Made by a program: the position numbers and the translations under genes. 64,000 bases of DNA from Liolophura sinensis (taxonomy: Eukaryota; Mollusca; Polyplacophora; Chitonida; Chitonidae), in NCBI RefSeq assembly GCF_032854445.1, contig NC_088295.1:42147385-42211384 (forward strand), read 5' to 3'. How positions within the stretch are numbered: position 1 is the stretch's first letter; every line of letters starts with the position of its first letter. Positions 13,032 through 54,283 of the stretch are shown one piece after another. The notes beneath the pieces were generated by a model. The model saw nothing but the letters and a program-made list of their open reading frames with translations, was not told the origin of the DNA and searched no databases.

Positions 13032-17899
<4,868 letters not shown>

Positions 17900-21200: not shown

Positions 21201-21785
21201 ATACAGAGAATACCTTTGATGTCAGAGAGCCAGAGCATAGGTGATGTCACACCTTGCCCTCCATAATAGAGACGTGCTGAAGCTGTGTCAAGATGAAGTT
21301 TCATTAAACTTTTACTGGGTCAGAAAAATCTAAAAAAATATGTATATGTATGTGCCGGTTTGAGATACTTTGAATGGTAGTCTTTCGGTGGACATAAACA
21401 TTAGTCAGGTACTGTCTTTCACTTTAATATCTGGAAGATTAAAACAAATTGTGTGTGACTTATTTCTTTTGTACAGTTATAAAAGGGAGTATTCAAACAG
21501 TGAATCTTGGTGTTTTTTTTTGTAGGTATAGCCCTGAGGACGGACAACTCATCTTATTTTATGCACCACAAGTTTGTAATAATCGACAACAGCCTTTTAA
21601 TCAATGGTTCTTTCAACTGGACGAGACAGGCAATCATGGGCAATCAGGAAAACCTTGTGATTGTAAACCATCCAGAGATACTGGAAGAGTTTAAGAAAGA
21701 GTTCAGTAAACTTTGGGAAGACTTTGACCCTAAATTTATCAGCAATCAACCACATTTACGTGCCATTCACAATTATCGTCACTGA
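18247..21785 (+). CDS. PLD6: Mitochondrial cardiolipin hydrolase / phospholipase D6 (Zucchini)
   Basis: Two coding exons, 18247-18691 and 21526-21785, give 234 residues (human 252). Residues 9-33 form a hydrophobic N-terminal anchor, followed by basic residues (HKRKDK), as expected for an outer mitochondrial membrane protein. A CCCH-type finger is seen as C62-x9-C72-x4-C77-x3-H81. The phospholipase D half-site is complete: H162-x-K164-x4-D169, then NGSFNW at 175-180. A single HKD motif means the enzyme must act as a homodimer. Family members either cleave cardiolipin or act as the endonuclease that makes piRNA 5' ends; both roles are described, and the sequence does not decide between them. 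The intron (2.8 kb, GT-AG) breaks a glycine codon at the same general place as in vertebrates, after the DVPGSQIWKLRAQG block. No missing catalytic residue was seen. Confidence 0.96.
18868..19095. repeat. Fold-back element in the PLD6 intron
   Basis: The left arm, about 18868-18935, contains ACTGACCTTTACAACT, TATTGGGTATAGACTG and ATTCCCTAAGTCAT. The right arm, about 19027-19095, contains the reverse complement of each in reverse order (GATGACTCAGGGAAT, CAGTGTATACCAAATA, AGTTGTAAAGGTCAGTG). Arms are about 68 bases with a spacer of about 90. This fits a short non-autonomous inverted-repeat element. Confidence 0.75.
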
Positions 21786-22099
21786 CACCTGGCAATTCAA
21801 AAAGGATGTGCAAATGCATTTACATGTATTTTATTTAAGATTAGAACTACCTTCACATCACAATGCTTAATTTTTGGCCTTTGACATGTTTGAAGTTAAA
21901 ATTTGACTATTTTCTATAGCTTATGGCTGACATGGTCAAAATTTTAATTGTTGGACCCTAAATAAGCTCTAAAAATCCTATTTCAAATTTTTATCTTTAG
22001 CTTGGCTTTATTGAATCGGGCCCCTTGTGTGAAAGGACTTTTAAATACCAGGCCTATTGTTATGTTTTCAGTAGCAGTAGCAAATAATAGGAGATCTAC

Positions 22100-29296: not shown

Positions 29297-32200
29297 TCAA
29301 TTGTCCTTCAGTCTCAGCAGTTCGCCTGAAGTAGTCTGTACACTGTAAACAAGGAAATAAAAACATGATGCACAGGCCTACCATTGTAGAATTAGAAGAA
29401 ACCCAATTGTAAGAAATCAGAAAACAGATTGTATTAAAACAATTATGCAATATTCTGGTTCTTATAATCATGAAAATATGTTGAGTTTTACAAGACATGT
29501 GACTTAGAGTGCTGAGTTCTAAACACAATTCCAGTCTGGGATACAGTGAAAACATACAGAGGCTATACCAGAGATTTTGGGATAAAAAATCCAGATTCAC
29601 TAATAAAATCAAATTTTCAAGATTTGTCAAGAATAGCTGAAATTACTGCCTTTCACAAAATATCAGAGACATACTACCTGTACTACATGTATTCATAATG
29701 GTAAAATGATACTAAATTTTAAACAAGTTATAAAGCGACACACAAATTTTATGAACTTTGTTAATAACTTTAAACTGTATCACATGCAGCAGATGAAGCA
29801 GATATTTTGTAAAAGGTAATTATTCCAGATGGCCTAAAATACAGCATTTCACCTAAAGTTTGGTATTTTATAGATGACACATTTTGCTTTGATTCTGACT
29901 GAATCATCAACCATATAGGCCCACATGAGTTTTTTTCATTCAGTTAATTTCTTCTCAGAAAACCTTAGGTGTTGGCATAAAAGCATTGTTTTAGGTGTAT
30001 ATATGCTCATGAAAGAGCATTTTTTGTGAAATACAGCAATGGCAAAAAATCTGATTGGATTTGCATATTTTGGCCAAATCTGTGGTATGGTCCCTATAAA
30101 ATAAAAATTTTTCGTTGTTTTCTCTCCTCAGAAAAGGGCTTCTCAAAAATATTGAGAATCATCCTGGCTAAGTATAGCAGAGTACTGTGAACAGAGTACT
30201 GTGTAACCTGGCTTACCATTCTACAAGTTCACTTCCAATGATATCATGGATATGGAACATCAAGCCCAACTTTGCTAACTTTGGCCATTTCCTTTGTTCC
30301 AGCTCCTACAAATAAACCAGAAATCTATGTATGTAACAGTGCTGTGATTGACAGACCTGAAAACCAATCAATTACTGACTTCTTTGAGATTTATGTGTTC
30401 ATGAAGCATTTAACTTCCAAAATCATCCGCTCAACTGCAGCAATGGTATGTAAAACATCATGTACACAGACCGTGACTGCTAGGACCTGGGGAAAGACAA
30501 AACATGTAGTCATTCCACTGAATGGAGATGTACAATTTTGGCTGAAGCCCCAATGACTGAGATTTGTTTATTTATTTGGTTGGTGTTTTACGCAGTTCTC
30601 AAGAATATTCCACTTAAACAAAGGCAGGCAGCATTATGATGGGAGGAAAAAAGGCAGAGTCTGGTGGAAACCCACAACCATTAGCACATACAGCTGGAGA
30701 GGTGACTTAAACTCACCGCGACTGTATTGATCAGAGGCAGTGATTCAGAGTCATTCACAGGCACACAGACATAAGAATACACGTCATACTGGCTCTTGTC
30801 CCTTTTGGTCAAGGGACAACTCATGTGACAGTTGCAGGAACATTATAGTTATACACACCTGTTTGAGAATCGCCCTGTATTTTGATTTGCGGATCATTGT
30901 CAGCACAGATTTTCTCCCCCTGATGAAACTCTTCATAAAGACGCCAGTATTAGGAATGGACAGCCACCAACTGCCCACCTCTCTGAATGTCAGTAAATTA
31001 GCCTTAACCATCTGCCTACAACACAAATGTCCACTAGCTGATTGATACATTCACTGATGATAGCATCTGTTTCTGTTTACACCAGATGGTAGTATAGCAA
31101 TGTATACAGAGGGCTTCGATTATTATTTACAAATTAAGAAGTTAGATCTCTTTTTACAGAGAAATATTTGTATTCTTTAAATTGAAAATCAGAGCACAGG
31201 TAAACAAGTGGCTAATGAGGGCCAATGAGAGGGCAACAGTCAAGGAAAAGCGACAACAGAAAACACACTGATGAACAACAGGAAGCAAATTAATGGGAAA
31301 CAAGCTGGCAAGGAATAAACAGTAAATAGCTCAGGAATGAACAACAGAAAATCCAAAATTAGCAACACACATCCCACTAATTATCAGAGACATTCCAACT
31401 GAACAAATGATTATGGCCTCACATAACCCTTGTAGTATTTCAGCCATCAATTTGACAAGACAATGTTTAAAAAGCAAGTCTGAAAATGAACAAGACTGCA
31501 CATGAATAAATTAAATTGCCATAGAAAGATCACTGAACAGAACAGGACTGAATAACTGTCAGCACAGAAAACCACCATGCAGAGCACTAATCCACAACTA
31601 AGCACATCCTAAAGCAGACTTATATTAGGTGAGAGATGTAGAGGACAGAGGTTCGTAAATTTGTATCTAACAGAGAAACTATAAACAACTGAATGGGTCA
31701 CAGACAATAACAAAATAATGAAAGGTGCCTTAAGGAAGAGGTATGCACCTAAATGAGATTCTACAAACAACTTTTTTGTGAATGGGTCACAGAGAAGTCA
31801 TAAAATAATTCCACAAAATAATGAATTCTGAACTAGACCAGCCTGAGAAACATAGGATGGCCTGAGTGAATCACAACATACAAGTGACTGTATGCCTGCA
31901 TGTATGTTAAAAATGTGAACTGTTTAATTTAATTTAAATTCATGTAAAAGAATTCAGTGTGATAACAATGATAAAGTCAGAATATTACGTGATCTCTTCG
32001 TCTTTGAAGCGGAACTCGTCAAGCAACGTCTCTTTGCTGATGCTGACATCACTGTGCTGGGAGACCACTTTTTTGATGAACTTATCTGAAACATGAACCA
32101 TCGTACCTCACATGGCTATTTCTTATGACATAATGAATTGTTGTAAATCGAAAAGCAAACGGGATTATAGGAGTCAGCGAATAGAAGCTCTCACCTATCA

Positions 32201-34015
32201 CAGTTTTACTGACAGCCATACTTCTGGAGGTTCTGAGTATATGAGATTTGTAATCCTCTGTAAATAACACACAGTACTCCTCTTCCCCTGTACCCATGGG
32301 AAGCTTGAACAATTTGATCTCCCCAGCTGTCCTCAGGTCATTCTGTCAAAGAATTACACAGGTTACATGCTACAGATATCTATTCAAAACAAATATTTTC
32401 CCTGGCAGGTAGCTTTACAGGTGTATGGAACTTGAGTGCCCTGAAAAAAACACTGACCTCTGGCAAGTTACTGACAAACTTTCCCATGTGTGATAGACAG
32501 ATATGTACACATACATTATTATGTTATGTATGTGCACCTACTACATATTTTTAAAACTGCAAAGTACCTGTATTTATGAGTCTAAAGACAGCACCTGTTA
32601 TTATCAACAGTTTCAATCCAGGACAATGTAACATCTAATCACACAATATCTTGATCCAATGCAGACTGAAAAATTAGCATGCCATCTACAAAAAGATATT
32701 TTAAAGAGAACTTCAGATTTAGCCCTGAAAATTAGCCAAGTGTGCCTTTAAATAATTTTGTTTTCCTGTGATGACATTTACATTTTTCTATTAGGACAAT
32801 AACCCTACTTTCCAAACAAACCTCAAACTTTCCTACTTTCCCAACAAAACCTCAAACTTTCTAAGATCAATGGTGCTCTCAAAATCAGGGAAAATTAGTG
32901 AATTAATCTTGGATGAAATAACAGGTCACAAATAGTAGTTAGTACATACTAAACTACTTGTGGCTGCTACACTGTATATTGGTGTACATCTTAACATAAA
33001 CAATTACCAGCTGTTTGTCTGCTACTGTTCTGTTCTTCACAATACTGTACACCTGGTGTTTGAGAATCATTGCAGGTAATGTGTGATGAAACTTCTCTAC
33101 TGGGAAAAGACCTCTTAGGAAGAACAAAGTAGCCTTTGTGTCTGACAGTATTTCATCAGCTGCAAAATAAAAGCAATCTCCAGGTCAAGATTGCATCACA
33201 GGTTCACTGAAAATAAAATTCTTGTTGTTAACTCTAAGTTATCCCTGTAGTGATAAATAACAGCAGCAAAGACCAAATTAAATGCACTTATTATTTATGA
33301 TTTTGTACAATTATTCCAGAAAATAAGTGTACATGTAAGCTCCTATATTAAGACACATTCTTAATTCATGACACATATGTTTGCACTTTTAAAATGACAG
33401 TTGACTGATCTAAATGTCATTCATAAAGGAAACAGTTTGCTATTATGCCTACATTTTATTAATTTATTTGATTGGAAATTGAATTATATACCGGTTCCCC
33501 ATCACAATTCCACAGCTGTTCTCTTAAAAGTACAGGAAACTGGAGTGTTGGAAGAAAAAAACCACAACCCATTTGCCAAAATAACATCATAATGTAATGT
33601 GCCATACAAGTGCATGTTAAAGTCTGACTACACTTTTATAGTTTTGATTGGATACAGAATCATGTCTTCAGAAACATAGATGTACACTTCAACATTCGAA
33701 ACTTTCAATGGGCTCCAGCCATATTGTTGACCCATGCAGGTCTATGAAGTCATATCACTAACCAACTGAAATTTGTTCAAGCATAACAAAAAAGGAACAT
33801 ACCTTGAAGACAGTGAATATTCTGGGCATTATTATATGTAAATATATTTGGTGAATGATATTAGTATACTAAGTTCAACTTGAGTACTAACACTCCACAT
33901 CTTTCTCATCTTTGGGAAACCCATTTGTGGCACCGCTATCGACTTTTGCTGGTCCCAAGAATATTCTTTTCCTCTGTTTGTAGATTTCAGGTATATGTGA
34001 TCTCTTCCGACTCAT
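29297..34015 (-). CDS. STK19: STK19 (winged-helix nuclear protein, transcription-coupled repair factor)
   Basis: Seven coding exons on the minus strand: 33892-34015, 33008-33159, 32195-32342, 31989-32085, 30859-31015, 30217-30305 and 29297-29342. They encode 270 residues (human about 254). The basic start MSRKRSHIPEIYKQRKRIFL is followed by the core LFFLRGLFPVEKFHHTLPAM, KNRTVADKQLNDLRTAGEIK and FTEDYKSHI. Later blocks are DEFRFKDEEITQMVKANLLT (to about residue 183), VGSWWLSIPNTGVFMKSFIR, GLMFHIHDIIGSELVEC and TTSGELLRLKDN. Each has a direct human counterpart (GSWWLAVPGAGRF, TTSGTLLRL). No kinase glycine loop, HRD or DFG motif is present. Recent work describes the human protein as a DNA-binding tandem winged-helix factor in transcription-coupled repair and not a kinase. 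The first intron uses the less common donor GTTAGT, chosen because it alone keeps frame. An acceptor (TTTTCAG) two bases before the ATG implies an upstream non-coding exon. Confidence 0.95.
30570..30720 (-). repeat. Inverted SINE family A fragment in STK19 intron 5
   Basis: This is the reverse complement of the family A tail and middle: 'tttatttatttggttggtgttttacgcag', 'caagaatattccactta', 'gatgggagga', 'ggaaacccacaaccatt'. Confidence 0.8.
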
Positions 34016-34450
34016 GTCTGAAAACATAAAAATAAACTGCCACTATGCTGCACTTTCCAGAACTAAATTTTACGATAAAGGGATACAGAATCGAATCTGA
34101 CTGGGTGACATGAGAGATAGGTAAGTCAAGGCTTTGCCTTGCCTATGCTGAATATCAGGTATGGTAGATTTATTCAGGCGTGATCAAGGATGCAAGATTT
34201 AACCCTGGAAACCCTATCAGCTATGTCCACTGTCAGACAATCAACATTGATTCTGTATCCCTTTAAGAAAGGATTCCTAAATGAGAGGGTCTTCTTGGAG
34301 TTCTTATTTGAGATGTATCTGTGGACTATGCTCATTGTATACTGGAATTGTCACTACTGCTTCTTTCACCATTGGTATTGTCCCCTTTGAAAGATGTGCT
34401 AGGAACAGGTGTCTGTATATAGGGGTCTACATGTATATATATGTAGCGTT

Positions 34451-34641
34451 TATGAGAGATGAGTTCTCTGGAGTGGGGGAGCTCGCACATATGCCGTAAG
34501 TTGGGGTTAGAAAACACTCTGTTCGCTCAACGCTCGTGCGCAAAACCATTTAGAGCCAGGGTTCTAACCCCAACTTCCGGCATATACATGAACTCTCCTA
34601 CGTGGAACTCCCGAGAACTCATATCTCTCATAGGCCCTATA

Positions 34642-34676
<35 letters not shown>
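34451..34676. repeat. Fold-back element ending in a TA microsatellite
   Basis: The left arm at 34451-34512 (TATGAGAGATGAGTTCTCTG ... CATATGCCGTAAGTTGGGGTTAGAA) is matched in reverse complement by 34562-34634 (TTCTAACCCCAACTTCCGGC ... GAGAACTCATATCTCTCATA). The spacer of about 49 bases is CG-containing ('gttcgctcaacgctcgtgcgc'). A (TA)n run of about 40 bases follows at 34636-34676, and a shorter ATGTATATATATGTA precedes the left arm. It lies in the STK19 5' region. Confidence 0.85.
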
Positions 34677-34679
<3 letters not shown>

Positions 34680-35589
34680 GCATATTATGGTAATTTTTTT
34701 TACATGTCATCCAATTTCATTTGCCAGTGACGGTGAGTGACATCTACTTTGAAACAATACACTGCATAGAACTGAATAAGTAACTTTTCAGAGTAATCCA
34801 GCTTTTAAACTTGTGAATTTTAATGCAAATTAATGGCATCAACTAGGTTTGCCCTAATTACCATACCAGAATGCCTGCGATTGCATGTCAGCAAAACTCG
34901 ATGAAAACTGCTTTCCTCCGGAAATGATCGGGCTTGTGTATCAAGATAGGAAAGTATACATGAAGGAATGCTTGACCTTAAACAAATGACATCATGCTCC
35001 TAACTGTATGCGCACGGCTTCGCATACACGTCTATGGCTTGTCAGATTCATCATCAGAATCAGTTACCGGAAAGTTACATTTACACTCAACAAATTTTGA
35101 CAACTTTGCAGACAGGACAATGCAAATCGTTGAATTTAGGGGATGGTATGAAGTGTTACCTTCAATACAATAAACTAAAGGCCTGACACGCACTTTGACG
35201 AGAGAAAACTTTAAATAACGTCTTTTTCTTCACTTGGCAACCAGGTAAAACCTAACCTGTACCCCGCCATGTTTGACGATAATAAGGTTTGATTGGTTGA
35301 TCATTGCAGTTCCGGTTCAAGTAGGACACTTTTTAACTCCTAAGCTAGAGAGTCTTTACACTAAATATTGTACTGAGTTGTTGTAACTTGCATGCGTACA
35401 AGTTGAAACTACTGTACCAAACTTTTCAAGTTTGCGTTTCTATGTACGCTACTTTTCAGTGTTGTGTGACACATTGATGTACAAGTGCAAGTGCAAGTCA
35501 ATATTTTGTTAATTCGCCAAATGATCAAATATCTGCGCGAAATAATGAATCTGATTCATCCCGGCTATCCGGCATTATTTTCAGGTGGG

Positions 35590-35755
35590 AGTTTTAAAAT
35601 AAGGTTGGGCCCCCAGATGGTCATGGGGTCCCCCCGCCAACCCCCCCCCCTCCCCCCGCCCCATTTGTCTCCTTCAATGATGTTGGCCACGGTCGTATAA
35701 GTGAAACATTTAAGGCACGGCGTAAGACGCCAATCATAACAAATAAATAAAAAAT
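35590..35755 (+). repeat. SINE family A 3' fragment
   Basis: Only the distal half is present ('gatggtcatggggtcccccc', 'atgatgttggccacggtcgtataagtgaaacat', 'ggcgtaagacgccaatcata...aaataaataaa'). It is interrupted by a run of C. Confidence 0.75.
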
Positions 35756-36766
35756 GTGTGTACTATTGCATGCATGCTTCTAACAATGGTATAAAACCAT
35801 AGTCCAGCTCAGTACGTTATCGCCAGTTTTTTGAAGTGTGTAGTACATCTTTGTGATGATGTGAAAGGGTAGACCTTTGGTCATTTGTACAAGAATTTTA
35901 GTCATAAATAATCCAGAAATACTTCTAAATTTGTTATAGTGTCGGCTTAGTTACATAATGCATTGGCAGGTGCTCTGCTAATGCAGCAAGCTAAATGATC
36001 TCGCTCCTTATTTAATGTTCAGACATTTACCTTGTCCAGTCATGGAGGTAGTACATTTAACATTGTTAAATTAGTGATCTGGGAGACCTCAGATATTGCT
36101 CAGACTTAAAATGAATCACTGAGATCATCAACATGATCAATATACATTTATGTGCACATGGTTGAATTATCATTGCATTAATTGGTGTGGTATGCGCTTT
36201 AATATTCAATTAATGGTGTACTAAACAGATCAAGCTGAATCCTGTGGCCAGCAAAATGCAGTTTCAGTAATTGTAGGATTTCAGCACTTGTAGGATTTCA
36301 GTACTCAGACTGTGATGGGATGAGGTATCTTGTCTGGTTATATGTATCGGCTTAAGTCACTATCCTGTTATGAATACTTATAGAAAAGTGTTGTGATTGA
36401 TTAAAATAATGCCAGACTTGATAAAGAAAAGAAATAATATTAAAGTAGTAAGTAAATAAAAATACTGATGTAAAGTATTTAGGTTAAACAACATTTTGTA
36501 CAAGAAAAAAGATGTATGAATCACACATGGTACTTTAATAACTTTATCACATATATGTTTACAGATGTGTGCATATTTTTGCCTTGTTTTTTCAGTGTAT
36601 ACTGGAGTGTGTTCTACCATCCAAGGTCTGAAAGATGTCATTTATTCTCACCTTTAGATCCTCTTTGACCTGTCATATGGAAAAAAACTTGACTTGAGAA
36701 AAGAATTTAAGGTCAAAATGAAATAATGTCATCAGGCAGCATTTCTGGGTAAAAATAGAAGGAATA

Positions 36767-39700
36767 ATGAAGAGGAAATCAGACGAAGCCTTTGAGGACT
36801 TTGGAAATAAAGTGAGGCGCAAAGATTCCAAAGACCAAAATGTGAATAACAAATTGGATGGATCTAATTGCCAACCAAGATTCTCTTTAAGGCAAATTCA
36901 GTCATCCAGGAGCCATTTTCCATACTATAGGCAGCCACGAGAAATTGGCTTCTTTTCTCTGGATATTCAGCGAAAGTTTTATGATGATAAAAGTCAGCTA
37001 AAGTTTTATATTGCTCCTAGCAATGCTGCCTCAGTGAATTTTAACCTGAGAGAAGGATACAAAGATCTGATCAAGAAAGACGAATCTGTGAAGGAATTTA
37101 TTGATGATCTGCTCAGATGGGTGTTGGTTCACAAACAGCTCTTTGTGTTGAGAGACAGTGAAGGGAATTTACCCTCAGATGAAACCTTGAAGAGGTACAT
37201 GGTAACCGGTAATTTAATTTCTAAGTTGTACGCTTTGGAAACAGAGATACATTGATACATTAATACATTGGGCATAGCTGTTTGTTTCACCTGGGATTAA
37301 AAGACGTCTATCGTAATCCCAGGTTTCACACCCATAAAACTGACCACCGTCTTACTAATGAAATCTTCTGAATAGCATGTTAAACACTAGTGAATGGCAA
37401 CTGCTCTAGACTGTCCTGTTTCAGCATTTGCTTGTCTTATGTTTTTTTAATAATTAATAATATGATTTGCCTCTCTGACTTCTCTATTTGTGAAGCCTAT
37501 TGTATTATATAGTTTATATACTAAAAACAGCTGGTATATTTTTTTAAAATTTTGTTGTGACAGTTTAAACACAGACTTCATTTGCTGGAGGGGCCTGCTA
37601 ACCAAGCTGTTATGTACGCCTTTTGAGAGAAGAGATGGCTGGTTGATTGCCATCATTCTGTACAGAGGAACATACTACATGTGTGAATATGACACGGAGG
37701 AGAGGAAACACCAGAAACAGCGAATAACACAGCGTCAAGATGAGATGTGCTACTGGGGCTGGAAGTTTGAACAGTACCTTGTGGCAGGTGAGCGGGCATG
37801 ATGCTGGGGCTGATTTCATGAAGCGTACTTAGTGTTAAGTCGCCCTTAGCTAAGTGCACTTTATATCTCTACAACATACGTTTTCCTGGTAGTTAAGGGC
37901 TTACTTAGTTAAGTGAGCTTCATGAAACTGGCCCCTAGGAAAGAAGTTTTAACTGATATTTAACTAAAGATGATGCACTTTATATGAGCTGGCCTTCATG
38001 GCCTAAAGGTTTGCATGCGAGGGCAGCACAATGACCATGGAACCTCTCACCATTATGATCCCTGTGTGTTCAGATTGTGCTGATGCTGGCCTGTCAACAG
38101 CCTGCAGATGGTCATGGGTTTCTCCCTGGTTTCCTGTGGCAGAAGTGAAATATACTAAAATATGTTATAAAAATCCAACTAGATAAATAAATCCACTTAT
38201 AGGACACCACCGTTTGCTAGGAACCTGTCAGCTGAGCATGAACATGCGACCTCTTTGGTCAAGGACAGCGAGATGCATTTCAGCCAGTGAGGACCCATGC
38301 TGGACGAATTATTGTTCAGTCAGGGGCAAGGTAGATAGATCTGATAGAGTTGATTTGGCAAATGGTTCTTGTTAATGAATTATTGCCTTCCCTGTATTCC
38401 ATTTTCGCATCCTTAAAATGTTTGTGAATTTTACATAAATGTCACAGTCATGACTGTACATGTATGAGTTAAATTTCTGGTTCTTGATGACATGCAATTG
38501 CCATGATATCTGATGTTTGCTGTACCCGGTGACTTTATCCACAGACTTGGAAAAAAATGAAATGTTTGAACAAGTGGTTATATACACTAAATGACATAAA
38601 ATTTCGCCCACAAAAGTGTGTTTTTATAGTCAAATAGATGTCACAAAATATTATTTTTGGGTCTGACACAATTAATTTTCCAGTAGATTATCATCCTGTG
38701 TTCCAAGCAACTCTCAGAATCAGGAAAAATCAGCAAGTTAGTCATGGATGAAATTTGTGGTCCTTTAGGAGACTAGTTTGTACATGTTTTAATGATCATA
38801 GCCTCATGACATCTTTTTGTTCGTTTATTTATTTATTTGACTGTTGTTTTGCGCCGTCATCTTTCTGTTTACAGACTCCCCAAAGAAACTGCCGGACACA
38901 ACAGGTCCTGTGAACAACTGTGAGGCATACTGCACCGTGGTCAGGAGTCGACTCACATCCCACTCAATGGGTAAGAATTTAATCTCAGTCATTTTCCCCT
39001 AATTGTAATGTTGTCATTTTTTTTACAGTACATTAAAGAGTTTGAGGGCATAGATCAGCCCACTTGAGAGATCTAAAGTTATTGCCTTTATGCTTAATTT
39101 GCATAATTTTTTCTACCAAGGTGTCCCTCAGGTGCGCAAGGTATTGCCTGCGTATTTTACTTGGCTCAGACAACTCTGTGGGACAGCTTTATACATGTGT
39201 GTGCAGATGCACTTACAATGTAGAAAAGGGCAGTGGTTTATATTGGCCACTCTGATCCCCTCTGACCTTGAAACTGACTTTTGTCATACATGTACTTGTG
39301 GAATATTATTTTACGGCATTAAATACTAATAAATCAATCAATTGATTTTCTGAAATTTTGTGATGTAAATGTATCTTGACTGGGACCATCTAGGGCAAGA
39401 TGTATTTACCATTTATTCCCCGCAGAAGGTAGAACTTGTTGCAGAAATCAAAAAAATAACTGATTCATAAAATATATGTGTCCAATTCTATAAAATGATG
39501 AGTATGCTGTTGAACCATAAAGAACTGTTTTCTTGGTTTACAGTGAAGTACATGTAATGACTGAAATCAGAAATAAAATTTTGTTGTTGCCTGTATCTCT
39601 CTTGGTTATCTCCCCTTTCAGTGTTTGCCGGTGAAGTGGACGGTCTTGATCCCAAATCAACAGAGCCATGCAAATATGTGGAGTTAAAGACTAGTCGAGA

Positions 39701-42700
39701 GATAGATAACAGACGGCAGGATGAAAACTTTAAACGGTATGCATCAGTAGGAATGGTGTTCAACCTGTTTGATTTAGATCCCTTTTTGGTGTTCAGTGGA
39801 AGTATTTAAAAATTATGCCCCCATGAGTTATAGGTTTATTTATTTCTTTTCTTGCTAGACCTTTTTTTCGTCCAGATATGTCCAGTTATCACAGTGTTAA
39901 AAGAATAATTTGTCTGACATAATACAAAAAAATTGAATGAAATTAAAATACTCTAATTCCTGGTATATGGTTAATATGGTTATGCAGATGGCATCACAAT
40001 TACTTGGTTTGCGGAAGTGTTTTAAGTAAACTGCAGGCTAATCCGCCTAAAAGGAACACAAGTATGAAAATGTGGCTTATATACATATACAGGGGAAAAA
40101 TAATATGAGAAGCCAAATACATGTACCCTGATTATCCAATAAATGTGAGAAAGTTGATTTAACAGACTGGTTTTCTGCCCTCAGTTTTAAGCTTATAAAG
40201 TGGTGGGCCCAGAGTTTTCTGCCTGGTGTTCCTACTGTCATATGCGGCTTCAGAGATGACAGTGGTGTGGTACATAGGCTACAAACCTACAAAACACTGG
40301 ATATTCCAGCAGTAGCCAAAGTAAGTCCTGATTTAGTTAATATTCCTTATTGTTGGGAACAGTCCACCAAAGTAAACTGACAAATAGACTACAGACCCAA
40401 AGAACACTGTTTATTCCAGCATTAGCCAAGTAAGTCCTGATGTAGTCAGTGTTCATTATTGTTTAGGACAGTCCACCAAAGTAAACTTGACACTAAACTA
40501 CAGACCTACAAAACACTGTATATTCCAGCATTAGCCAAAGTAAGTTGTGATGTAGTCACTGTTCATTATTGTTTAGGACAGTCCACCAAAGTAAACTTGA
40601 CACTAAACTACAGACCTACAAAACACTGGATGTTCCAGAATAGCCGAAGTAAGTCCTGATTCAGTCAGTATTCTTTATTGTTGGGAACAGTCCAGTGAGT
40701 AAACTGACAAATACACTACAAACCTTCAGAACATGGCATATTTCAGAGTAGCCAGAGTAAGTCCTGATTCAGTCAGTATTCTTTATTGTTGGGAACAGTT
40801 CAGTAAGTAAACTGACAAATACACTACAAACCTTCAGAACATGGCATATTCCAGAGTAGCCAGAGTAAGTCCTGATTCAGTCAGTATTCTTTATTGTTGG
40901 GAACAGTCCAGTAAGTAAACTGACAAATACACTACAAACCTTCAGAACATGGCATATTCCAGAGTAGCCAGAGTAAGTCCTGATTCAGTCAGTATTCTTT
41001 ATTGTTTAGGACAGTCCACCTAAATAAACTGACACATAGACTACAGACCTACAAAACACTGTATATTCCTGCATTAACCAAAGCAAGTCATGATGTAGTC
41101 AGTGTTCATTATTGTTGGGGACAATCCACTGCATAAACTGACATAAAGACTAGGGGTATATTTTTCAGCCTCCAGTGAGGTACATGTAAGTACTAAAAAG
41201 CTTAAAAATTAAATAAAATTGTAAACGTGTATTAGCAATGGAATTAATCATGAACATATATGTATATATATGCTTATGGTTTTACATCGCACATATTAAA
41301 CAAATTTTCAGTCATATGACTAGGAGGAATCATTAGGTATGTGTACATATAATGTGTCTTCTTGTAGCTGGGTGAGTCCATGCTGCTAAAGTGCTGCCGC
41401 CACAGGAAACCCTAACAGGTCACCGTCACATTATACTGACACCCGGCCAACCAATCCTGTTTCCTTGGTCAAACCTGCCAGTGCTGAGTGGGGTTAATAT
41501 CTTATCTGTTAATTATGAAGTTTTAGGTTTTAATGTCTATGTACTTCTGACTTTCAGCAATTTATCATGAATTGTAAAGGAAACATTATTTCAGTACAAA
41601 TGCAGTTTATCAAATTTGAAGAAGTGTATGGGAACATTTTCTCTTCTGCCTTTCTGTTACTAACTTCTGTTTTACATTTCAGGATATCAATGATCCCTGG
41701 GATGCTGCAACATGTTTTAATTTCCTGGACAAGTTTTTTCATTTTGTCAAAGAGTCTGTCAAAGTAGATGACCCCAGGTAAAGTTGGATTTGACAGTCTG
41801 GTTAAATGCGTGGGATAATAAAACATTTAAAAGTTATCATAGGCTATTTATTATTGAACTAAGATCATGAAATTTTTCATACAACAGTTATTCATTTGCG
41901 GTGCAAAAAGGACCTTTTTTACTAGGATCCAAGTACTCTGGAAACATAGGGTTGCATCTTTTGATTAGCTTCACATTTCTACTCAATAGTACATCAGTCC
42001 ATAACCACAGAACAGCGTAGTGATATTGAATGCTCGGAGCATCTAATGACACTTCATTAATTAATACAAGATTAAAACAGTAACTATGGTTAGTTGACAG
42101 TCAAAATGGTATTTCAGTGCTATTCTACACATGTAATAAACCTGCTTTGATAGAAAGCACTTGATGACCTATTTGAATGTTCCCACTATCCAAAGGACTG
42201 CGCAACTTGCTAAAAATAGTGTTCATATGCGAAGTTGTACAAGTAGTACCTAACTTTATCTGCATGAAATATGCTCAAACAACAACCAAAATTACAATAA
42301 ACAAGAACATTACAATGCAGCAAAATGTCAAAGGATTGCTAAAATATTTTACGAGTCTAGTCACATGACTAACAGGGTTGCTGAAGGAAAACATGGCTGC
42401 GGCAACATTTACAAAAGGTCTAATATGGATTACCAGTACATGGATGCAAATTCAGGAGTTAATACATGTGTCACAGCGTTATTTGAGTTCCAGGAAAGTT
42501 CAGGTAACCATGCATGCATGTAGGTACATTTGTGGTTTATGACAGCAATATAAAAGTACATTCCACCATGCCATCCCAACCTAACATTACACTTTACATG
42601 TCTGTCAGTACCCTAATTCTTCTAGTTTTCATGACAGATAGGAGTGCTGAAAGCAAAGAAATACATTTACGTCTCAGTTTTTCGGAAAAGTAAAAATATG

Positions 42701-43303
42701 CATATGTTGCTCATTAGAAGGACTAGCGTTGTGTAAAGTAAGAAACTAAATATTCCTGCTACAATTACATGTATATTGGCTAAAAAAAAGAAGACCAGGT
42801 GTCTCAAAAGTTAAAAGAATTCGGGTAGCTGAGGACACAAGTGTTGGTTAAATTATACTCTCAATAGGGAAACTTCAGGAGTTCTTTGCTGTCATTAGAT
42901 AAAGAGATGCTGGTGCTACAAGAAGTTTGTAGGGATTATTAGACCTCCATCCATGCGAAAAAATGTGTGTTATGCATGGAAATATTTGTCAGTTACATAG
43001 AAATATATATTTGATAGCTTTATTCAATAATCAAGGTTATTTCACTTATAGAATAAGTATACTTTGTCTAACACTACTTTTGTTTAAACCTATATTGCCA
43101 TTATTAACCAATGTAACAGAGCCAGAAGTACAATGTATGTATGTTAACTAAATTCACCCATGACAGACATGTTTGTTTGCAGAGTGGTGCACCTGTTCTC
43201 CTGGAGCCCGGGGGAGGACATCACGTGTGAGGACATGGGCACAGACTCGGAGTATTCCTTCTTACCCCACTGGTACATCGATAAGCTTTTCCCCCAGACC
43301 TGA
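36767..43303 (+). CDS. DXO: Decapping and exoribonuclease protein DXO (Rai1/Dom3Z family)
   Basis: Seven coding exons: 36767-37194, 37564-37787, 38875-38970, 39622-39736, 40185-40320, 41683-41777 and 43183-43303, giving about 404 residues (human 396). The first intron border is the least certain: donor 37195 with acceptor 37563 keeps frame, and so does donor 37209 with acceptor 37574. Family motifs are all present: YRQPREIGFFSLD near the start, WRGLLTKLLCTPFERRDGW, GWKFEQY, the metal-binding pair G253-E254-V255-D256 and E270-L271-K272, K293-WWAQSFLPGVP, and GFRD at 309-312. The last exon gives RVVHLFSWSPGEDI. DXO removes incomplete or NAD caps from RNA 5' ends and then degrades the RNA 5' to 3', using two metal ions held by the E-V-D and E-L-K residues. 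A lone AATAAA at 43481-43486 is the likely polyadenylation signal. Intron 5 contains a tandem array derived from exon 5. Confidence 0.95.
38000..38195 (+). repeat. Divergent SINE family A copy in DXO intron 2
   Basis: The head is decayed ('gcctaaaggtttgcatgcgagggcagcacaatgacc'). The middle ('ctgcagatggtcatgggttt') and tail ('aaaaatccaactagataaataaatcc') fit family A. Confidence 0.65.
38585..38770 (+). repeat. Dispersed repeat family F copy
   Basis: It begins AAATGACATAAAATTTCGCC, contains 'gttccaagcaactctcagaatcagg', and ends 'gttagtcatggatgaaatttgtggtc'. The end is an imperfect reverse complement of the start, suggesting an inverted-repeat element. It lies in DXO intron 2. Confidence 0.55.
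40279..41140 (+). repeat. 109-bp tandem array copying the end of DXO exon 5 and its splice donor
   Basis: Copy zero is real: the last 42 bases of exon 5 (CTACAAACCTACAAAACACT ... GTAGCCAAA) and the donor GTAAGTCCTGAT at 40321. Seven further copies follow. Their donor sites start at 40430, 40540, 40649, 40757, 40865, 40973 (all GTAAGT) and 41083 (GCAAGT), i.e. every 108-110 bases. Each copy carries an exon-like part (CTACAGACCTACAAAACACT ... TTAGCCAAA in the closest ones), a donor, and the same intron segment ('gtcagtgttcattattg', 'cagtccaccaaagtaaact'). Copies 4-6 are nearly identical to each other, indicating recent local expansion. The array lies in intron 5. Confidence 0.95.
41320..41480 (+). 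repeat. Dispersed repeat family C, copy 1
   Basis: It contains 'gggtgagtccatgctgctaaagtgctgccgcca' and a following segment with 'attatactgacacccggcc', preceded by 'atgtgtcttcttgtagc'. The same order of words (gtgtctcc-ttg-atgcagggtgagtccaagctgccaaagtgc) occurs at 51290-51370. It is probably the 3' part of a SINE or another non-autonomous retroelement. Confidence 0.6.
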
Positions 43304-46300: not shown

Positions 46301-47593
46301 GGTGGTTCACTCCTCTTGCCATATGTGACCGGCGCAATAAGCACATTGTATATGCTCACATTTCACACTGCTATTGTGTTCCCATATGATAACCGACACC
46401 TGAAATGACATCCATGACTGAGTTGCCAAGTTTGCCTGATTCCGAGAGTTCTGTTGATCTTGGAAAGCTGTTTTGAGTTTTGTTTGGACACTATGATGAT
46501 ACACCACAGTACAGGGAAAAATATATTTCATCACAAAAAGAATATTTCATGAAACTTTTTTGACTGTTATTAATTTTTATTTTATTTATTTTTTTGGATG
46601 TTATTAACCATACATGTACATCACCACAATTAACAAATTACATTAATAAATGACCACAACTGAATTAGGCATTTTCAAGCAGCTTTTAATTACATAAATG
46701 TGCTACAAGGTGAAAGTCCAAAAACTTCCTTGATTTCAAGTGACCATGTATGCAGGGAACAGCCTTCTTTTGTCTAATGCCATTCTGTTCCTCCAGAACT
46801 GGATGTCTGTGTGGTGTTACTATGCATAAGAAAATCTTATGATTGCAGTTAACTTTACACTAGGACAAAATTTGCGGTTACGGGAGGTTACCAACTTCGT
46901 CATAGACTTCTCTGAGTTGCCCAAGAAAACTGGGGAGGGGACGACCCAAGACCACCTCAGGACATAAAGATGCAGTCCTTCATTTCTGTAGTGTCCTCCC
47001 TCGATGATCAAGCCGTAGAATTTAAATATTAAACAAGAGCAAGGAATAATAATGTTTCCTAAACTTAAAGTGAATTCCAGACTGCCTGATTAATCTTTCC
47101 ATCATTCCAGTAATGTCACAAACATGTTTCCCACTGTTGAGGGCTTGAGGTTTAGCGTCCCTGTCAACAAAATTCTGGACACTTGGTGTCTCTGTTTGGA
47201 CATATCCTAAGTGCTGAAGACCTCAGACAAGACACCACATCCAAACCCTGAGTATGAACATGCAACCATTTGCAGGAATAAATGTCCAGTCAACTGTATT
47301 CAATATTGGTTTAAAATACAAGCTACTAAAACCATGGATCAAGCTTTTTTGTCATTTCAAAATGTAAGGATTTTCAGTTCATGTGGAGCCTTGACAGAAG
47401 CTAATCCACATTTTCACAGAACTTTGTCCATACCTAACCATGGCAACAATGAAGAATTGCAGCTTTACCAAGTCTCCAGTTCACTGACAATTGTTTTGAC
47501 AACCATAACATATTCCATCTTCTTACCATACAATCTTATAACAAAAACTTTCTTATAACAAAACTTGGTATTCTTTCTGATGCTCGTTCATCA
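43304..47593. other. Intergenic region between DXO and PDRG1 (convergent)
   Basis: DXO and PDRG1 run towards each other. The DXO polyadenylation signal is at 43481-43486. An intact SINE family B copy (44671-45036) and inverted family F pieces (about 44330-44560, 46330-46520) occupy parts of it. A run of 13 G lies at 45422-45434. I see no coding sequence in the remainder. Confidence 0.6.
44658..45049 (+). repeat. Intact SINE family B copy with target-site duplication
   Basis: The element at 44671-45036 (366 bases) starts with a tRNA-like head. The head has an A box (GATAGCACAGTTGGTAGAGC), an anticodon-arm-like part and a degenerate B box (GATCAATCC). The body is 'aagttgtaacttcctcgcttgg', 'cccgtatcagtataatggc', 'agagcggtggaaatccgtcc', 'tcgtcgtcatatgactgaaa', and the tail is (CACT)n. 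It is flanked by the perfect 13-base direct repeat TCAAGACCTTGCT at 44658-44670 and 45037-45049. Confidence 0.95.
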
Positions 47594-49687
47594 TCACAAG
47601 AGACTGTCAATTGCTTTCATTTCCTCCCTACTTAATGGGTTTAACTGGAATCCTTTGGCAGCGTCTTTATCCTCCAGATCTCGTAGTTTGTTAACCTTGG
47701 GCTTCAGTCGTTGTCTTACCTCTGTAATTTCTTTGTCAAGCTCATCAAAATCTGCAATGAAAACAATGCATCCTTAAAAGTTTATATAGACATGGGTGTA
47801 ACACCTGGAGTGGAGTGCACAATCAAATCAAAATCATTCTGACAGCAGGGATACAAGAAGTATTAAGTTGAGGCAGCATTACATGACAGATGTTTAAGCC
47901 AGAATTACACTGAGCTTAAATGTTAAAACACTTAAATGTACGAAACTGGATGCAGCCTAGAGGAAACCACGTACTGTTCACAGCGTCTAACCAGACATCT
48001 AACAAATCAACTAACTTACAGCCACAGCTGAATCAGTGAGAGCTGGTTTTGAACCTTGACCTCACTAGTTAGGATAGTCATCATCTGGAGGAGACCTATT
48101 AGACAATATGTGTTATACATGTATGAGTTTCATGTCAGAAAAAAAAATGTACCCAAAAAGTCATAACCAAATTGTTAAAAGGCTGACATCACTGATGACC
48201 CATTCAACCATGATCAGCAAATTAGCCATACAATGCATGTATATTTATTTATTTTATTGGTCTTTTACACAGTACTCAAGATATTTCATTTATATGACGG
48301 CGGCCAGCATTATCGTTGGAGGAAACCAGGCAGAGCCCGGGGAAACTCACGACCATCTGCAGGCAATACATGTACATGCATATATACATGTACAAACATG
48401 TGCAATGGGGACCCGTCAAATGCCGCCCACCAGGACCTTGACGTCATTTTATTGACGTCAAATGTTCCTTTCCCAGCTCAAAATGATGACATCACAAGGC
48501 AGCACGCTGTTACAATAGAAACTGATACACTGTATCAGTGTAGACATAACAATGGCTTGAAGTTCTGCTTCACAATAGCGCCACCTCACAGGATTAAAAA
48601 TCTGACGCCTCCCCATTATTTCACATGTATGACATGGAGAACTGTACAGCAGCCCACCAGCGAGAAACATTATTTTTTAGGGTTGTGACACATGTACTTG
48701 TAAGCGGACTTTAAACTTGCCACATGAAATGAAAGTTCATATCCATTGTCTGACATGCACTTGACAACACGTATAAACTTCTGTTATTAATATAAACCCT
48801 ACTCACCTTGATTTAATAACTTCTTAGTCTGATCCCCAGGAAACTTTATGAAGGTATTTCCCAGACAAACCCAGTTCTTGTTTGAGGTGTCTTTCCGCAC
48901 AGCCCTGGGAACATCTAAATGGGTCAGTACCTTACTTGTGACACTGTCTTTACATTTATACATGTACATAATTCGTCAAGTCACTTGTGCTACAGACCAC
49001 ACATGAGAGTCTTACAAAATCAGTGTGTACAGCCGACATAGAGAGTAATGTTGCACTGAATTATGAGTAACTGGAGGTGGGTACACAGAGGTGAAAGAAA
49101 ATGGTTTTCAAGGACTTGCATGTAACACTGTAAGTTTTTCAGTAATTCAATGACAATTCCATGAAGTAGGCCTGCTATTTTGATATGTTATTTATTGGTC
49201 CATTTCAAACATAGTGCAATATGTTATTTAATACTGAAAATCCACCACATGTACTTTCACTGGCTTACCCTAAAATAAACTCTTTTCCAAAGATTCTAAC
49301 AGTATAAAATCTTTTATCAATATTCTAGGACTTTCAAAGATTTCAAGGACAGGAAAGAAAATGCAGAGAATACTAGTTACTGTCATCTTTTGGACATCAT
49401 ACAAATATCACATTTTGCAGGGAAGTTGATAGCTTACAAGAGATACATGTTCCCTTTTCCAACACTGTTTCCTACCGACAAGGGCCTGAATATTTCACCA
49501 CTAAGGCACCACAGGGGCAGCCAACTACACAAACTTACCTGATAGCCTCCCTTGTCTTCTGTCTTTTCTTGTCCAGGTCTACCAACTGTCTTTTGTCAGT
49601 CAGAATGTCCTCAGCTAAGCCCTCTACTTCAGTCAGGTAATGCAGCATCTTGTCTTCTTGTTCAGCTGGGCCGATCTTTTTTTCCAT
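47594..49687 (-). CDS. PDRG1: p53 and DNA damage-regulated protein 1 (prefoldin-like)
   Basis: Three coding exons on the minus strand, 49539-49687, 48807-48904 and 47594-47751, give 134 residues (human 133). The first helix is EQEDKMLHYLTEVEGLAEDI followed by DKRQLVDLDKKRQKTREA. The short central hairpin is NWVCLGNTFIKFP (human VMVCFGNMFIKMP). The second helix is DELDKEITEVRQRLKPKVNK, and the conserved end is KGFQLNPLSREEMKAIDSLL. Two coiled-coil helices joined by a beta hairpin are the prefoldin-beta fold. In other animals PDRG1 is a subunit of the R2TP/prefoldin-like (PAQosome) complex, which helps assemble RNA polymerases and related machines. All introns are GT-AG. The sequence GGCAG just upstream of the ATG could be an acceptor, so a 5' UTR exon is possible. 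Confidence 0.95.
48245..48370 (-). repeat. Inverted SINE family A fragment in PDRG1 intron 2
   Basis: This is the reverse complement of the family A tail: 'atttattggtcttttacacagtactcaag', 'atttatatgacggcggccagcatta', 'ggaggaaacc', 'gagcccggggaaactcacgaccatctgcagg'. Confidence 0.85.
48410..48620. repeat. Dispersed repeat family D, copy 2
   Basis: Shares ordered blocks with 17340-17540, including 'ccttgacgtcatttta.tgacgtcaaatgttcc' and 'gccacctcacaggattaaaaa'. It contains a short internal palindrome 'actgatacactgtatcagt'. It directly follows the inverted SINE. Confidence 0.6.
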
Positions 49688-49989
49688 CCTGCCAAATGTT
49701 CCCTTCACTCCTCAGTCTCGAGTAAAGGACTTGAATGTGCATCTCATCAAGTGATTCTGGAATGTCAAAAAGTTACAAAATCTCCACTAGTATTGACTTG
49801 TCTGGGTTTAACTTACAGTCATTAAACAGTGGTACCTCTTTGAAGAAGGCCAGGTCCATTGTCAATATGTTTAAAGAGACCCTTCACTGGAAGGCCATTC
49901 TGAAAACATAAGACACAATGCCCCCAAAGACAGAAAATACAGACCTGTGCTTGGCCGATTCCCTGACTGTTACATGTAACACCAAGCTA

Positions 49990-50330
49990 GGTTGCTACAA
50001 GGTTGCTACCAACATTGTACCAAGCCAGGGAAGTAGCATGATTGCCATCAGTTTGTTCCAAGGCAATCAACTACCTGTAGCAAGATTGCCATGAAGATTT
50101 CCCAAGCCAATGAAGTAGCAAGATTGTCACCAACACTGTGCCAAGTCAGTGAAGTAGCAAGATTGCCACAAAGGTTTACCAAGCCAGTGAAGTAGCAAGA
50201 CTGCCACAAAGGTTGTACCAAGCCAGTGAGGTAGCAAGATTGCCACAAAGGTTGTACCAAGCCAGTGAGGTAGCAAGATTGCCACAAAGGTTGTACCAAG
50301 CCAGTGAAGTAGCAAGATTTCCTAACATTT
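49990..50330. repeat. 39-bp minisatellite upstream of PDRG1
   Basis: About eight units of roughly 39 bases (AAGCCAGTGAGGTAGCAAGA then TTGCCACAAAGGTTGTACC) become more uniform towards 50160-50310. The 39-base period keeps one minus frame open, giving a repetitive WQSCYLTGLVQPL translation; this is not a gene. It lies 300-650 bases upstream of the PDRG1 start codon and could be in its promoter or 5' UTR intron. Confidence 0.9.
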
Positions 50331-51259
50331 TAGGAATACCCTGATTTAGGCTTGAGCCTGTCATGTACAATCTAACCACTCACTCACTGCAGTGTGGTTT
50401 CCATTAGTGAGGATTACTGTCAAGAGTTCAATTTATATCCCATTGTTTAGGTTTTCAGTTCAAGTTATGCTTGCCTAAGGAAACAAACCTGTAATAAGTA
50501 TCAGTGGCTTTCTTTCTGTAGACATAAGCTCTGTAACAACAAATTTTACTTAAGCCTTATCTTTAGTAAACTACTTTGTTGTGGAGAATTGCTATCCAAA
50601 GATCATTTTTGCCACACCTCCTTACAACAGTGTTGCCAATTCAGCAGTTTAATGATGATTGTTTTAACATGCAGCATACCTCAGAGAAGTGGCCCAAGAC
50701 ACCTCAGGAATGATAGCAGCACCTTACCACCTGGTCACTAACTGCACCCAAGACTTCAGATATTGACATCATTACACCGTTCACTAGAAGTTAAAATCAA
50801 GTTTATTTGAGCATGTTTTTTTGATAATAGGAACAAAAATTAATAAAATTTTCTCCAAACTCTAGAGACTGCTACATGCATATCCATACATGATAAACCG
50901 TCCGTCAGACAGTGAGGATAACCAATTTACACTAACTGAACTGACACAGTCAACCAGTCCTTGTACTGTTCTCTCAGTGTTGAGTATCCATACATACTGT
51001 ACAATAGTTTTGTAACTTTAATACCTTACTTATTAAAGGTCAGCTTTATGGTATATGGTACACGGTAAAGAAAAAAGAGAGCACTTAAAAACAGCACTAT
51101 GTACATGTACCTGACAAAATGTACTTGACACCACAGTCTTTCAAGTCTTTTGACATCAGTTGTTTGTAATCAGCTGACAATATAGAGAATACATGTAGAA
51201 ATATTTATGAATATTATTTAAGTAAGTATATATTTATGCCTGAGGTTTTATGTTATACT

Positions 51260-51480
51260 TTAAAACCATTTTTTAGTCATAAGACAACCAGGAGTCATCA
51301 GGAGTGTGTATATATTCTGTGTCTCCTTGATGCAGGGTGAGTCCAAGCTGCCAAAGTGCTGCTGCCACTGAAGCATCATGCTCTAACCTCTGAGAGCTGT
51401 GTGCCAAGAGAGAACGACAAACACCATTATCCCAACATGGAGGCAAACACTCAAACCAATAGGCCACCGATACGGTCTAC
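51260..51480 (+). repeat. Dispersed repeat family C, copy 2
   Basis: The words 'agtcataagacaaccaggagtcatcaggagtgtg', 'tgtctccttgatgcagggtgagtcca' and 'ctgccaaagtgctgctgccac' match the order in 41320-41440. Confidence 0.6.
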
Positions 51481-52745
51481 AATGTATGTGTCTCGACAGG
51501 CTCTCCATCTTCAAAGAGACACCTGTGTATTAGAAGCTAAGACAAATACCTTAAAATACATTCAAATGTTATTTTTGAAGTTCTTTCATCCTGCTAAAAA
51601 CTAGCTTAAAGAATCACCACATGAAAAAGTTACACCAGTATTAGCAACACCACAAACACAAAGTCTTTAACTAATTTCATTCCAAGCATCCCAAGGAAAA
51701 GTATCTCCCAGCTTCTTCAAACAAAATTACTAGACTTGGAGCTAAATAATGAAATATTCAAAATACCAATGAAAACAAACAAAACAATAACAGCTAGAAT
51801 TATTAACTTCAATATTTATATTATATTTCACTACAAACCAAGACATCTTATCACATCATACGAACAACTGAGGTCACTAAAAAAATTATTAAGAAGCAAT
51901 TTTCACCAAACCAACTACCGATGGCTAAAACACGCGAACAGAAATCTATGTGAACTTCATGTCAAAATTCCTTTACTCTTTTTATTTATTTATTTATTTA
52001 TTTTTATTTATTTCATTGGTCCTTAATTTTGTAATCAAGAATTTTCCACATATATTATATTTTAGTGGACAGGTTTATAACAGATCCATAAAGGAAACCT
52101 GAGTGCCCTTCACCAGGTACCTGGCAAACCTCCGGACTTGAAAAAAAGGAGGTGAAGCAGCAAGAGCTGGATTTGAACATGTAACCCCATTGGTCAAGGA
52201 TCTGATTGCATCAAGCTAGCAATTAAACCATCTGAGTGAGAGAGGGCCTCACAGAACTTGTAAGATATGCCACTTACTAATGTTACAGCAGAACTTGTAC
52301 ATGTATCAACTGAATTTGTTACCACAACACCACTTCAACTACATGTAATTTCAAGCTTTGATGACATAGTATATACATGAATATTACACTTAACAAGCAC
52401 AATATTATCTTTCATACTGACAATTATTTAATACTTAAGTTATTCTGAACTTTTGCCAAAGCTCCAAATGAAAAGTATTAAGGAGTAACAAATATAACAT
52501 GTAGGTCATTACTTTGAACATACATTCGTAAGATATACATCTTACATTTTTCCCAAAATTGAAAAAAATTCTTTACTTAATTATTAGTCTTCATGAAGAG
52601 AAATGAATGCTGTGTAGTTGTCCCTGACCCTATTTTTACATATAAAATAATACCAATAAAGCAACATTATGAGACTTTGGGTATCACATCACAAAATAAC
52701 ACAATGAAACATAATAGGTTTGGTTTGGAAACTTAAAACACAGCC

Positions 52746-53795
52746 TTATTCACTGTTCATATAAATTCTAAGTTTCCTTTCCCATTCCTTCTCTTTGCAT
52801 TCCTTCTTTTTCCTCTTTTTCTTTGACAGTGTTGCATTTCTCATCTTTCTTTCAACTTTTGGTTTCTTCACAGCAGATTGATCATTTGCTGAAAAATGGG
52901 TCACTCGAGATTTAGCCTTTTCTTCTTTGGTTGAGCCTAGCCCAAGTCGATCTCGTTTCATAACTGTCCTCACTGGGAACTTTCTTCCCTGTCCCTCCGA
53001 GCCTAATCCTTTGTCAACATTCCATCCACTTTTCACCATCATCTGGAAACCACGGTTAGATTCTGGAATGAAGTATGTTGTGGTTTTAGCTTCCAACTTC
53101 AAGTTAAACAAGTGCACTGTTGATGTAGCATGTCTTGCCTCTGTAGTGTCCTTAAATTCACATTTACAAACACTGCAATAAAATCTCTTGTGTTCACTAC
53201 ATTGTTTTGTTCCACAAGGCACCACATGGTCTGACTCCGTGACACTACTGGGTCTGTTGTGTCTTTCTAAAATGCTAACAACCTTCCAATGCCTCTTTTC
53301 CTGCGCTAACATTTTTGCACATTTTCCAACTTTATCACAGACTAATGAATTTGCCCCCTTGTCTAAAAGGTAACAAACAACTTCATGATGACCTCCGCAA
53401 GAAGCGCTCATGAGTGCAGTCCATCCAAAGGCATCTTGAAAGTTGATATTAGCACCTCTCTCGATACAAAGCTGAGTATTGTTCAAATCACCATTTTGGG
53501 AACACTTCAGTAGTTCGTTACTGAGACGATTTTCAGCAGAGAAACTCGGCTTCAGTTCAAGGTTCTGCTGTTTAAATGCTTCACCGTTTGAATCCAAACC
53601 TTCAGGGCTCCGTGGGGTTTTACTTGTTGATGAAACAAGGCTCTCATAAAACTCCCTGATCTTGTCTCCTTCGTCAGTGTCAATGTTACCAATTTCTACA
53701 GAATGCTGTTCAGAATCTTCCTTTGACAAGTTGGTACATTTCAAGTCTTGTAGATCGACAGGTCTAACGAAGTTGACTACGTTTCTGGTATGCAT
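52746..53795 (-). CDS. GPANK1: G-patch domain and ankyrin repeat-containing protein 1
   Basis: A single open frame of 349 residues (human 356). The start segment includes KIREFYESLV at 45-54 (human ARAFYEAL). Ankyrin repeats span about residues 92-178 (NGDLNNTQLCIERGANINFQ, DAFGWTALMSASCGGHHEVV, CYLLDKGANS). A C2H2-like finger lies at 207-228 (C-x2-C, then H222 and H228). The G-patch is at about 248-290 (RGFQMMVKSGWNVDKGLGSE, then KRDRLGLGS). The C-terminus is lysine-rich and ends WERKLRIYMNSE, equivalent to human WERDLRTYMNLEF. G-patch proteins generally bind RNA and activate DEAH helicases; the function of GPANK1 is poorly known. The coding region has no intron, unlike its neighbours. An intronless coding exon with introns only in the UTR is possible, and a retrocopy is unlikely because the conserved divergent context and full domain set look native. 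Confidence 0.96.
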   Translation of the reverse strand: MHTRNVVNFVRPVDLQDLKCTNLSKEDSEQHSVEIGNIDTDEGDKIREFYESLVSSTSKTPRSPEGLDSNGEAFKQQNLELKPSFSAENRLSNELLKCSQNGDLNNTQLCIERGANINFQDAFGWTALMSASCGGHHEVVCYLLDKGANSLVCDKVGKCAKMLAQEKRHWKVVSILERHNRPSSVTESDHVVPCGTKQCSEHKRFYCSVCKCEFKDTTEARHATSTVHLFNLKLEAKTTTYFIPESNRGFQMMVKSGWNVDKGLGSEGQGRKFPVRTVMKRDRLGLGSTKEEKAKSRVTHFSANDQSAVKKPKVERKMRNATLSKKKRKKKECKEKEWERKLRIYMNSE

Positions 53796-54283
53796 TATGG
53801 TGGTTTACAAGCTGCCAAGCTCCTTACATGAGTTGATAATAAAACGAAGTCTCTTCGTTTTCTTGTGAGTTCCTAGTGACGCACACTGCGAACTTAGTCA
53901 TTGCAACAACAACAATGACATCTAAACGTCAATTTTCGACGCGGAAATCGTTGTTGATGATCGTAATCAGCTGAATAAAAGATAGCGTCTTTCAGTTAGA
54001 AATATAGCTCACTTGACATCATGATAAAAGGATAAACATACTGTTACTATCAAAGTAAGTTTTACCTCATATTGCCGTTTGTCCCGGTTTCAGTCTCAAC
54101 GAATGGTACACATTTCCGGTTACAAAGATATTTGTTTCAATTTTAAAATATAAATGACGATTTATTCAAGCCATTTTGGGTAGCATATTTCAATATTTAA
54201 AAAGTGTAAATTTACTATATATATTTGAGTAGTATTCGCGCATATAAATTCAGCGGGTCTGTTGCCATAGCATCAGTTTCAAG
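53796..54283. promoter_or_regulatory. Divergent promoter region of GPANK1 and the TEX47-like gene
   Basis: There are 488 bases between the two start codons. Several CG dinucleotides cluster near each gene ('tttcgacgcggaaatcg' at 53935, 'ttcgcgcatataaattcagcggg' at 54235). No introns or other genes are apparent, so one shared promoter is the simplest reading. Confidence 0.45.

Follow-up and report, generated by a model that had tools for sequence, protein, structure and literature searches.

Gene content of the locus

The window, a stretch of 64,000 nucleotides from the chiton Liolophura sinensis (C1:42147385-42211384), lies without any N inside a 96.4-Mb contig of an assembly comprising 609 Mb in 632 contigs. 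It holds STK19 and DXO on opposite strands with their 5' ends facing each other, and GPANK1 two genes downstream of DXO. The features discussed here are, in window coordinates:

30213-34015, minus strand: STK19 (RP1/G11) coding region, spliced model, 6 exons, 256 aa
33892-34015, 33008-33159, 32195-32342, 31989-32085, 30859-31015, 30213-30305, minus strand: coding exons of STK19
34686-35656, no strand: non-repeat stretch between STK19 and DXO with raised CpG, candidate shared promoter
36767-43303, plus strand: DXO (DOM3Z) coding region, RAI1-type nuclease, spliced model, 7 exons, 404 aa
36767-37194, 37564-37787, 38875-38970, 39622-39736, 40185-40320, 41683-41777, 43183-43303, plus strand: coding exons of DXO
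47597-49687, minus strand: PDRG1, partial model by sequence recognition, with at least the first and last coding exons
52749-53795, minus strand: GPANK1 (BAT4), single coding exon, 349 aa, ankyrin repeats and G-patch
54284-59532, plus strand: TEX47-like gene, partial model, head to head with GPANK1, start peptide MASEYDE

The STK19 model is intact, with GT-AG at every intron and an open frame over 256 aa. Human STK19 can be aligned to it over the whole length, starting at residue one (MSRKR) and stopping just short of the C-terminus, at 39% identity, and this full-length colinearity with the vertebrate protein is joined by a Stk19 Pfam domain in exon 5 (2.6e-8), the exon that is also matched by solved human STK19 chains (PDB) at about 1e-11. 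The DXO model is equally intact, with GT-AG introns throughout; it shares 43% identity with human DXO across 355 aa, carries the RAI1 Pfam domain, and contains the catalytic motifs GEVD and YVELKTS (ELK). Independent support for the two identifications, besides the comparison with the human sequences, comes from the Pfam matches of both genes and, for STK19, from the solved structures. Profile searches of the whole 609-Mb assembly found a single Pfam Stk19 locus, and every RAI1 Pfam match in the genome traces to one DXO gene.

A tandem array of 108 bp x 7.9 lies within DXO at 40279-41143. It starts out from the 3' end of the fifth coding exon and its GTAAGT donor, and since its copies repeat this exon end, alternative splice sites may arise.

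The placement of the animal in Lophotrochozoa follows from its mitochondrial genome (contig C632, 15.2 kb), in which TGA is read as Trp and the genes are ordered cox1-cox2-atp8-atp6, then nad5-nad4-nad4L-cob-nad6-nad1 on the opposite strand, then cox3-nad3-nad2. This is a mollusc or lophophorate order: chitons, vetigastropods and Octopus have it, and that of Phoronis is nearly the same. Besides this single copy, at least seven copies of the mitochondrial genome lie about 15.5 kb apart on contig C99, probably as an assembly concatemer.

The interval between STK19 and DXO

The start codons of STK19 and DXO are 2.75 kb apart, and no further gene was recognised in the interval between them. The two genes thus form a divergent, head-to-head pair: the sequence-only reading had described STK19 (minus) and DXO (plus) as immediate divergent neighbours, and the intact spliced models with their GT-AG introns bear this out, although its left edge at 29297 was set too far out, the coding part of STK19 stopping at 30213. 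If 25,000 genes are assumed, a random gene order would place two given genes side by side in divergent orientation with a probability of about 2e-5, which makes the pairing very unlikely to be due to chance.

CpG o/e rises to 0.67 in the non-repeat stretch at 34686-35656; it averages 0.35 over the window and is low in the bodies of both genes (mostly 0-0.45). SINE-like repeat insertions at 34428-34685 and 35657-35758 flank this stretch, and it is by these repeats that the intergenic space has been lengthened. A CpG island spanning the whole of 34.5-36 kb was considered and was cut back once the repeats were masked; the CpG signal that remains is modest. An unmethylated promoter with a methylated housekeeping gene on either side would be expected to show such a pattern.

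DXO acts in the removal of faulty RNA 5' ends, and STK19 in transcription-coupled DNA repair. Surveillance of RNA 5' ends and transcription-coupled repair are functions for which co-expression of the two genes, and with it a functional coupling, would be plausible. Most likely, a candidate bidirectional promoter and regulatory region common to both genes holds the pair together; control regions that are shared or overlap would account for the failure of the two genes to be separated. The shared promoter is less certain here, given the 2.75 kb between the start codons, than in humans, where the 5' ends of the two genes overlap.

GPANK1 and the remaining neighbours

The GPANK1 coding region unites ankyrin repeats and a G-patch in one protein (Pfam Ank_2, 4e-11; G-patch, 4e-13) and lies 9.4-10.5 kb past the DXO stop, in agreement with the "about 10 kb" given earlier. 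With 25,000 genes again assumed, there is a chance of about 1% that one or more of some 40 other class III genes will lie a few slots or less from the pair. Taken alone, the position of GPANK1 is only moderately surprising and is suggestive, since a class III gene of any kind would have been scored.

The gene between DXO and GPANK1 that we recognise as PDRG1 gave no match to a Pfam model; its peptides match human PDRG1. The TEX47-like gene has a Pfam TEX47 match (5e-7) at 59242-59532, and further genes of the window are PTCD1-like PPR exons, TVP23 (DUF846) and PLD6. None of the PTCD1-like, TVP23, PLD6, PDRG1 and TEX47 genes is known as a human MHC gene.

Several observations concern these neighbours in their own right. 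The interval between GPANK1 and the TEX47-like gene (53501-54500) is repeat-free with strongly raised CpG (o/e 0.96-1.24), and may likewise be a bidirectional promoter, the second candidate of the window. The divergent partner that adjoins GPANK1 in humans is CSNK2B, so that the partner of GPANK1 has changed. TVP23 and PLD6 adjoin each other within 12000-22000 of the window; human TVP23B and PLD6 are both located at 17p11.2, and the two possibly represent a second old linkage. The segment 25026-26624 holds a 26-bp x 18 and a 27-bp x 26 array, both large and with strong GC skew (-0.36), in which long reading frames stay open; they are probably minisatellites.

Other class III genes of the chiton

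Eight further class III markers were located, and every one of them falls on chromosome C13 (30.1 Mb, 4.9% of the assembly), whereas STK19, DXO and GPANK1 lie on C1. The product of chances for such a distribution is about 4e-11. Their positions on C13 are:

1.66 Mb: PBX
4.48 Mb: SKIC2
7.01 Mb: PRRC2
8.56 Mb: CSNK2B
18.96 Mb: BAG6
19.32 Mb: EHMT
27.13 Mb: ABHD16A
28.92 Mb: NELFE

These markers are not of equal value. PBX, PRRC2 and EHMT are each the one invertebrate relative of a small set of vertebrate paralogues and therefore mark the MHC paralogon generally (there is one PBX locus in the genome, as in invertebrates); CSNK2B, BAG6, ABHD16A, SKIC2 and NELFE are more specific class III markers. 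For NELFE, the first genome search had no match at E<=0.01, a looser search gave a weak match on C13, and colinear exon matches in a 20-kb stretch confirmed the locus. Two of the three short queries in this check were approximated invertebrate NELFE, and the human sequence alone still matched five colinear pieces. The helicase on C13 was also considered as MTREX, which was rejected on its 72-87% identity to SKIC2 as against 50-71% to MTREX; the helicase match on C7 is, by elimination, MTREX. A head-to-head arrangement of NELFE and SKIC2 was likewise rejected, as NELFE was not found in the roughly 13 kb upstream of SKIC2 and the two genes lie about 24 Mb apart. With its eight class III or MHC-paralogon orthologues, C13:1.66-28.93 Mb is a candidate proto-MHC chromosome, on which BAG6 and EHMT are separated by only 0.37 Mb.

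Eleven other class III genes were queried, and none had a match in the 164 kb of C1 that surround the trio. Several class III orthologues together on one chromosome, as a region homologous to MHC class III should show them, are found on C13 and not around the trio. With eight of eight markers on C13 and none of the eleven queried genes near the trio, the window lies off the MHC-homologous chromosome.

Age of the pair and origin of its linkage to class III

In mammals as in shark, zebrafish and coelacanth, the divergent arrangement of DXO and STK19 is on record (PMC6769589). The same pair in a lophotrochozoan, taken together with the vertebrate one, would place its origin no later than the common ancestor of protostomes and deuterostomes. 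Inheritance from this ancestor is the simplest account and would very probably be the correct one, bearing in mind that the invertebrate evidence for the ancestry is one genome, compared with published vertebrates. The pair thus appears to be older than vertebrates, and the block around it appears to be no counterpart of the MHC. GPANK1 may have shared this old neighbourhood: that it was linked to the pair in ancient times is plausible, on the evidence of a single genome. The sequence-only reading had proposed that all three genes were linked in the bilaterian ancestor, and this proposal is supported for STK19 and DXO, which have the same arrangement in published vertebrates, and is plausible for GPANK1. 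Overall we consider it probable that the locus preserves an old divergent pair of bilaterian ancestry, with a shared promoter as a likely feature and GPANK1 perhaps as part of the same neighbourhood. In vertebrates both the pair and GPANK1 came to lie within class III, where the pair was kept tight and GPANK1 now stands some hundreds of kb off.

The discrepancy between an ancient pair and a locus remote from other class III genes has several conceivable explanations. Either the trio came into the vertebrate MHC from a chromosome of its own, or it left the MHC linkage group in the chiton lineage. In the former case the bilaterian ancestor would have carried the three genes on a separate chromosome, and their entry into class III would fall on the vertebrate stem; the trio on C1 and eight of eight class III genes on C13 speak for this. 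Shark, zebrafish and coelacanth, moreover, are reported to have DXO-STK19 and NELFE-SKIV2L only on separate segments, which were joined definitively in frogs, but the authors themselves warn that the fish segments are perhaps unlinked only through short scaffolds (PMC6769589). One invertebrate, furthermore, cannot polarise the change, and we regard a recruitment on the vertebrate stem as a serious possibility that falls somewhat short of even. According to the latter, the trio once belonged to a C13-like ancestral linkage group behind class III and moved to C1 as a small segment. A single translocation is as economical as a recruitment in vertebrates, and chromosome rearrangement is frequent in chitons (PMC12005716); however, none of the MHC neighbours travelled with the trio (11 class III genes queried, 164 kb), and what was taken for one proto-MHC chromosome is argued to have been several separate chromosomes in the proto-vertebrate (PMC8302630), a description that favours recruitment. 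We regard a departure in the chiton lineage as about as likely as recruitment, again somewhat short of even. With one genome to go by, the two scenarios explain the data about equally well, and both refine our explanation of an inherited pair rather than compete with it: in either one the pair moved as a unit. If recruitment is followed further, vertebrate class III might tentatively be seen as built from at least two bilaterian chromosomes: a C13-type core of PBX, PRRC2, CSNK2B, BAG6, EHMT, ABHD16A, SKIC2 and NELFE, which would already have shared a chromosome before protostomes and deuterostomes parted, and a preassembled STK19-DXO-GPANK1 module that the vertebrate stem would have taken up afterwards. 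Core and capture are proposed jointly, and jointly we would give them rather less than an even chance.

Two further explanations would deny either the distinctness of the block or the inheritance of the pair. The sequence-only reading had taken the locus for the invertebrate equivalent of a block of MHC class III genes, homologous to the vertebrate region, with the immune genes joining later. Three genes of the block do belong to human class III, where GPANK1 (BAT4), DOM3Z and STK19 are so listed (PMC1309616), but the position on C13 of all eight other class III orthologues that were placed, with none in the 164 kb around the trio (0/11 queried), and a neighbourhood of PTCD1-like, TVP23, PLD6, PDRG1 and TEX47 genes speak against it. 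This reading is strongly disfavoured and improbable. Even less credible is that STK19 and DXO were brought together independently or were misjoined in the assembly. A small misjoin is conceivable at the level of the assembly; yet a same-orientation adjacency has a chance of about 2e-5 (25,000 genes assumed), and both intact genes lie in a window free of N, well within a contig of 96.4 Mb.

Comparison with known systems

A review of 2019 names NELFE-SKIV2L and DXO-STK19 as the two head-to-head pairs of vertebrate class III, reports STK19 homologues mostly from vertebrates, a sea anemone excepted, and states that before vertebrates no linkage of any two of the four MHC genes of RNA surveillance, NELFE, SKIC2, DXO and STK19, was known (PMC6769589). 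Our own literature searches for linkage of STK19, DXO and GPANK1 in invertebrates found none, and a text search of the main text of PMC10751288, in which the framework genes of the proto-MHC are given, found neither STK19 nor DXO. The DXO-STK19 pair in a lophotrochozoan is a direct counter-example to the statement of the review (PMC6769589). It separates two questions that are usually merged, namely the age of the class III gene pairs and the date at which class III was assembled. The markers used here, eight on one chromosome and three on another, can be located in every animal genome that is assembled to chromosome scale, and their placement could decide whether class III gained the module or the chiton lineage moved it away.

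Among the systems to which the locus can be compared, the NELFE-SKIV2L-DXO-STK19 (NSDK) quartet (PMC6769589) is the closest: here, too, DXO and STK19 are immediate divergent neighbours. In contrast to the quartet, NELFE and SKIC2 are found on C13, neither beside the pair nor head to head with each other, and the start codons of the pair stand apart where the human 5' ends overlap. The proto-MHC or primordial immune complex (RXR, NOTCH, PBX, BRD and others; PMC10751288, PMC8302630) resembles C13, which carries PBX and seven other class III orthologues, whereas the trio of the window lies off that chromosome. Conserved metazoan bidirectional pairs, as cases of ancient microsynteny, differ in their spacing, as the intergenic distance observed here exceeds the under-1-kb usual for bidirectional promoters according to PMC2194621; they are nevertheless matched by the chiton locus in its two housekeeping genes, long kept divergent around a CpG-raised intergenic region.
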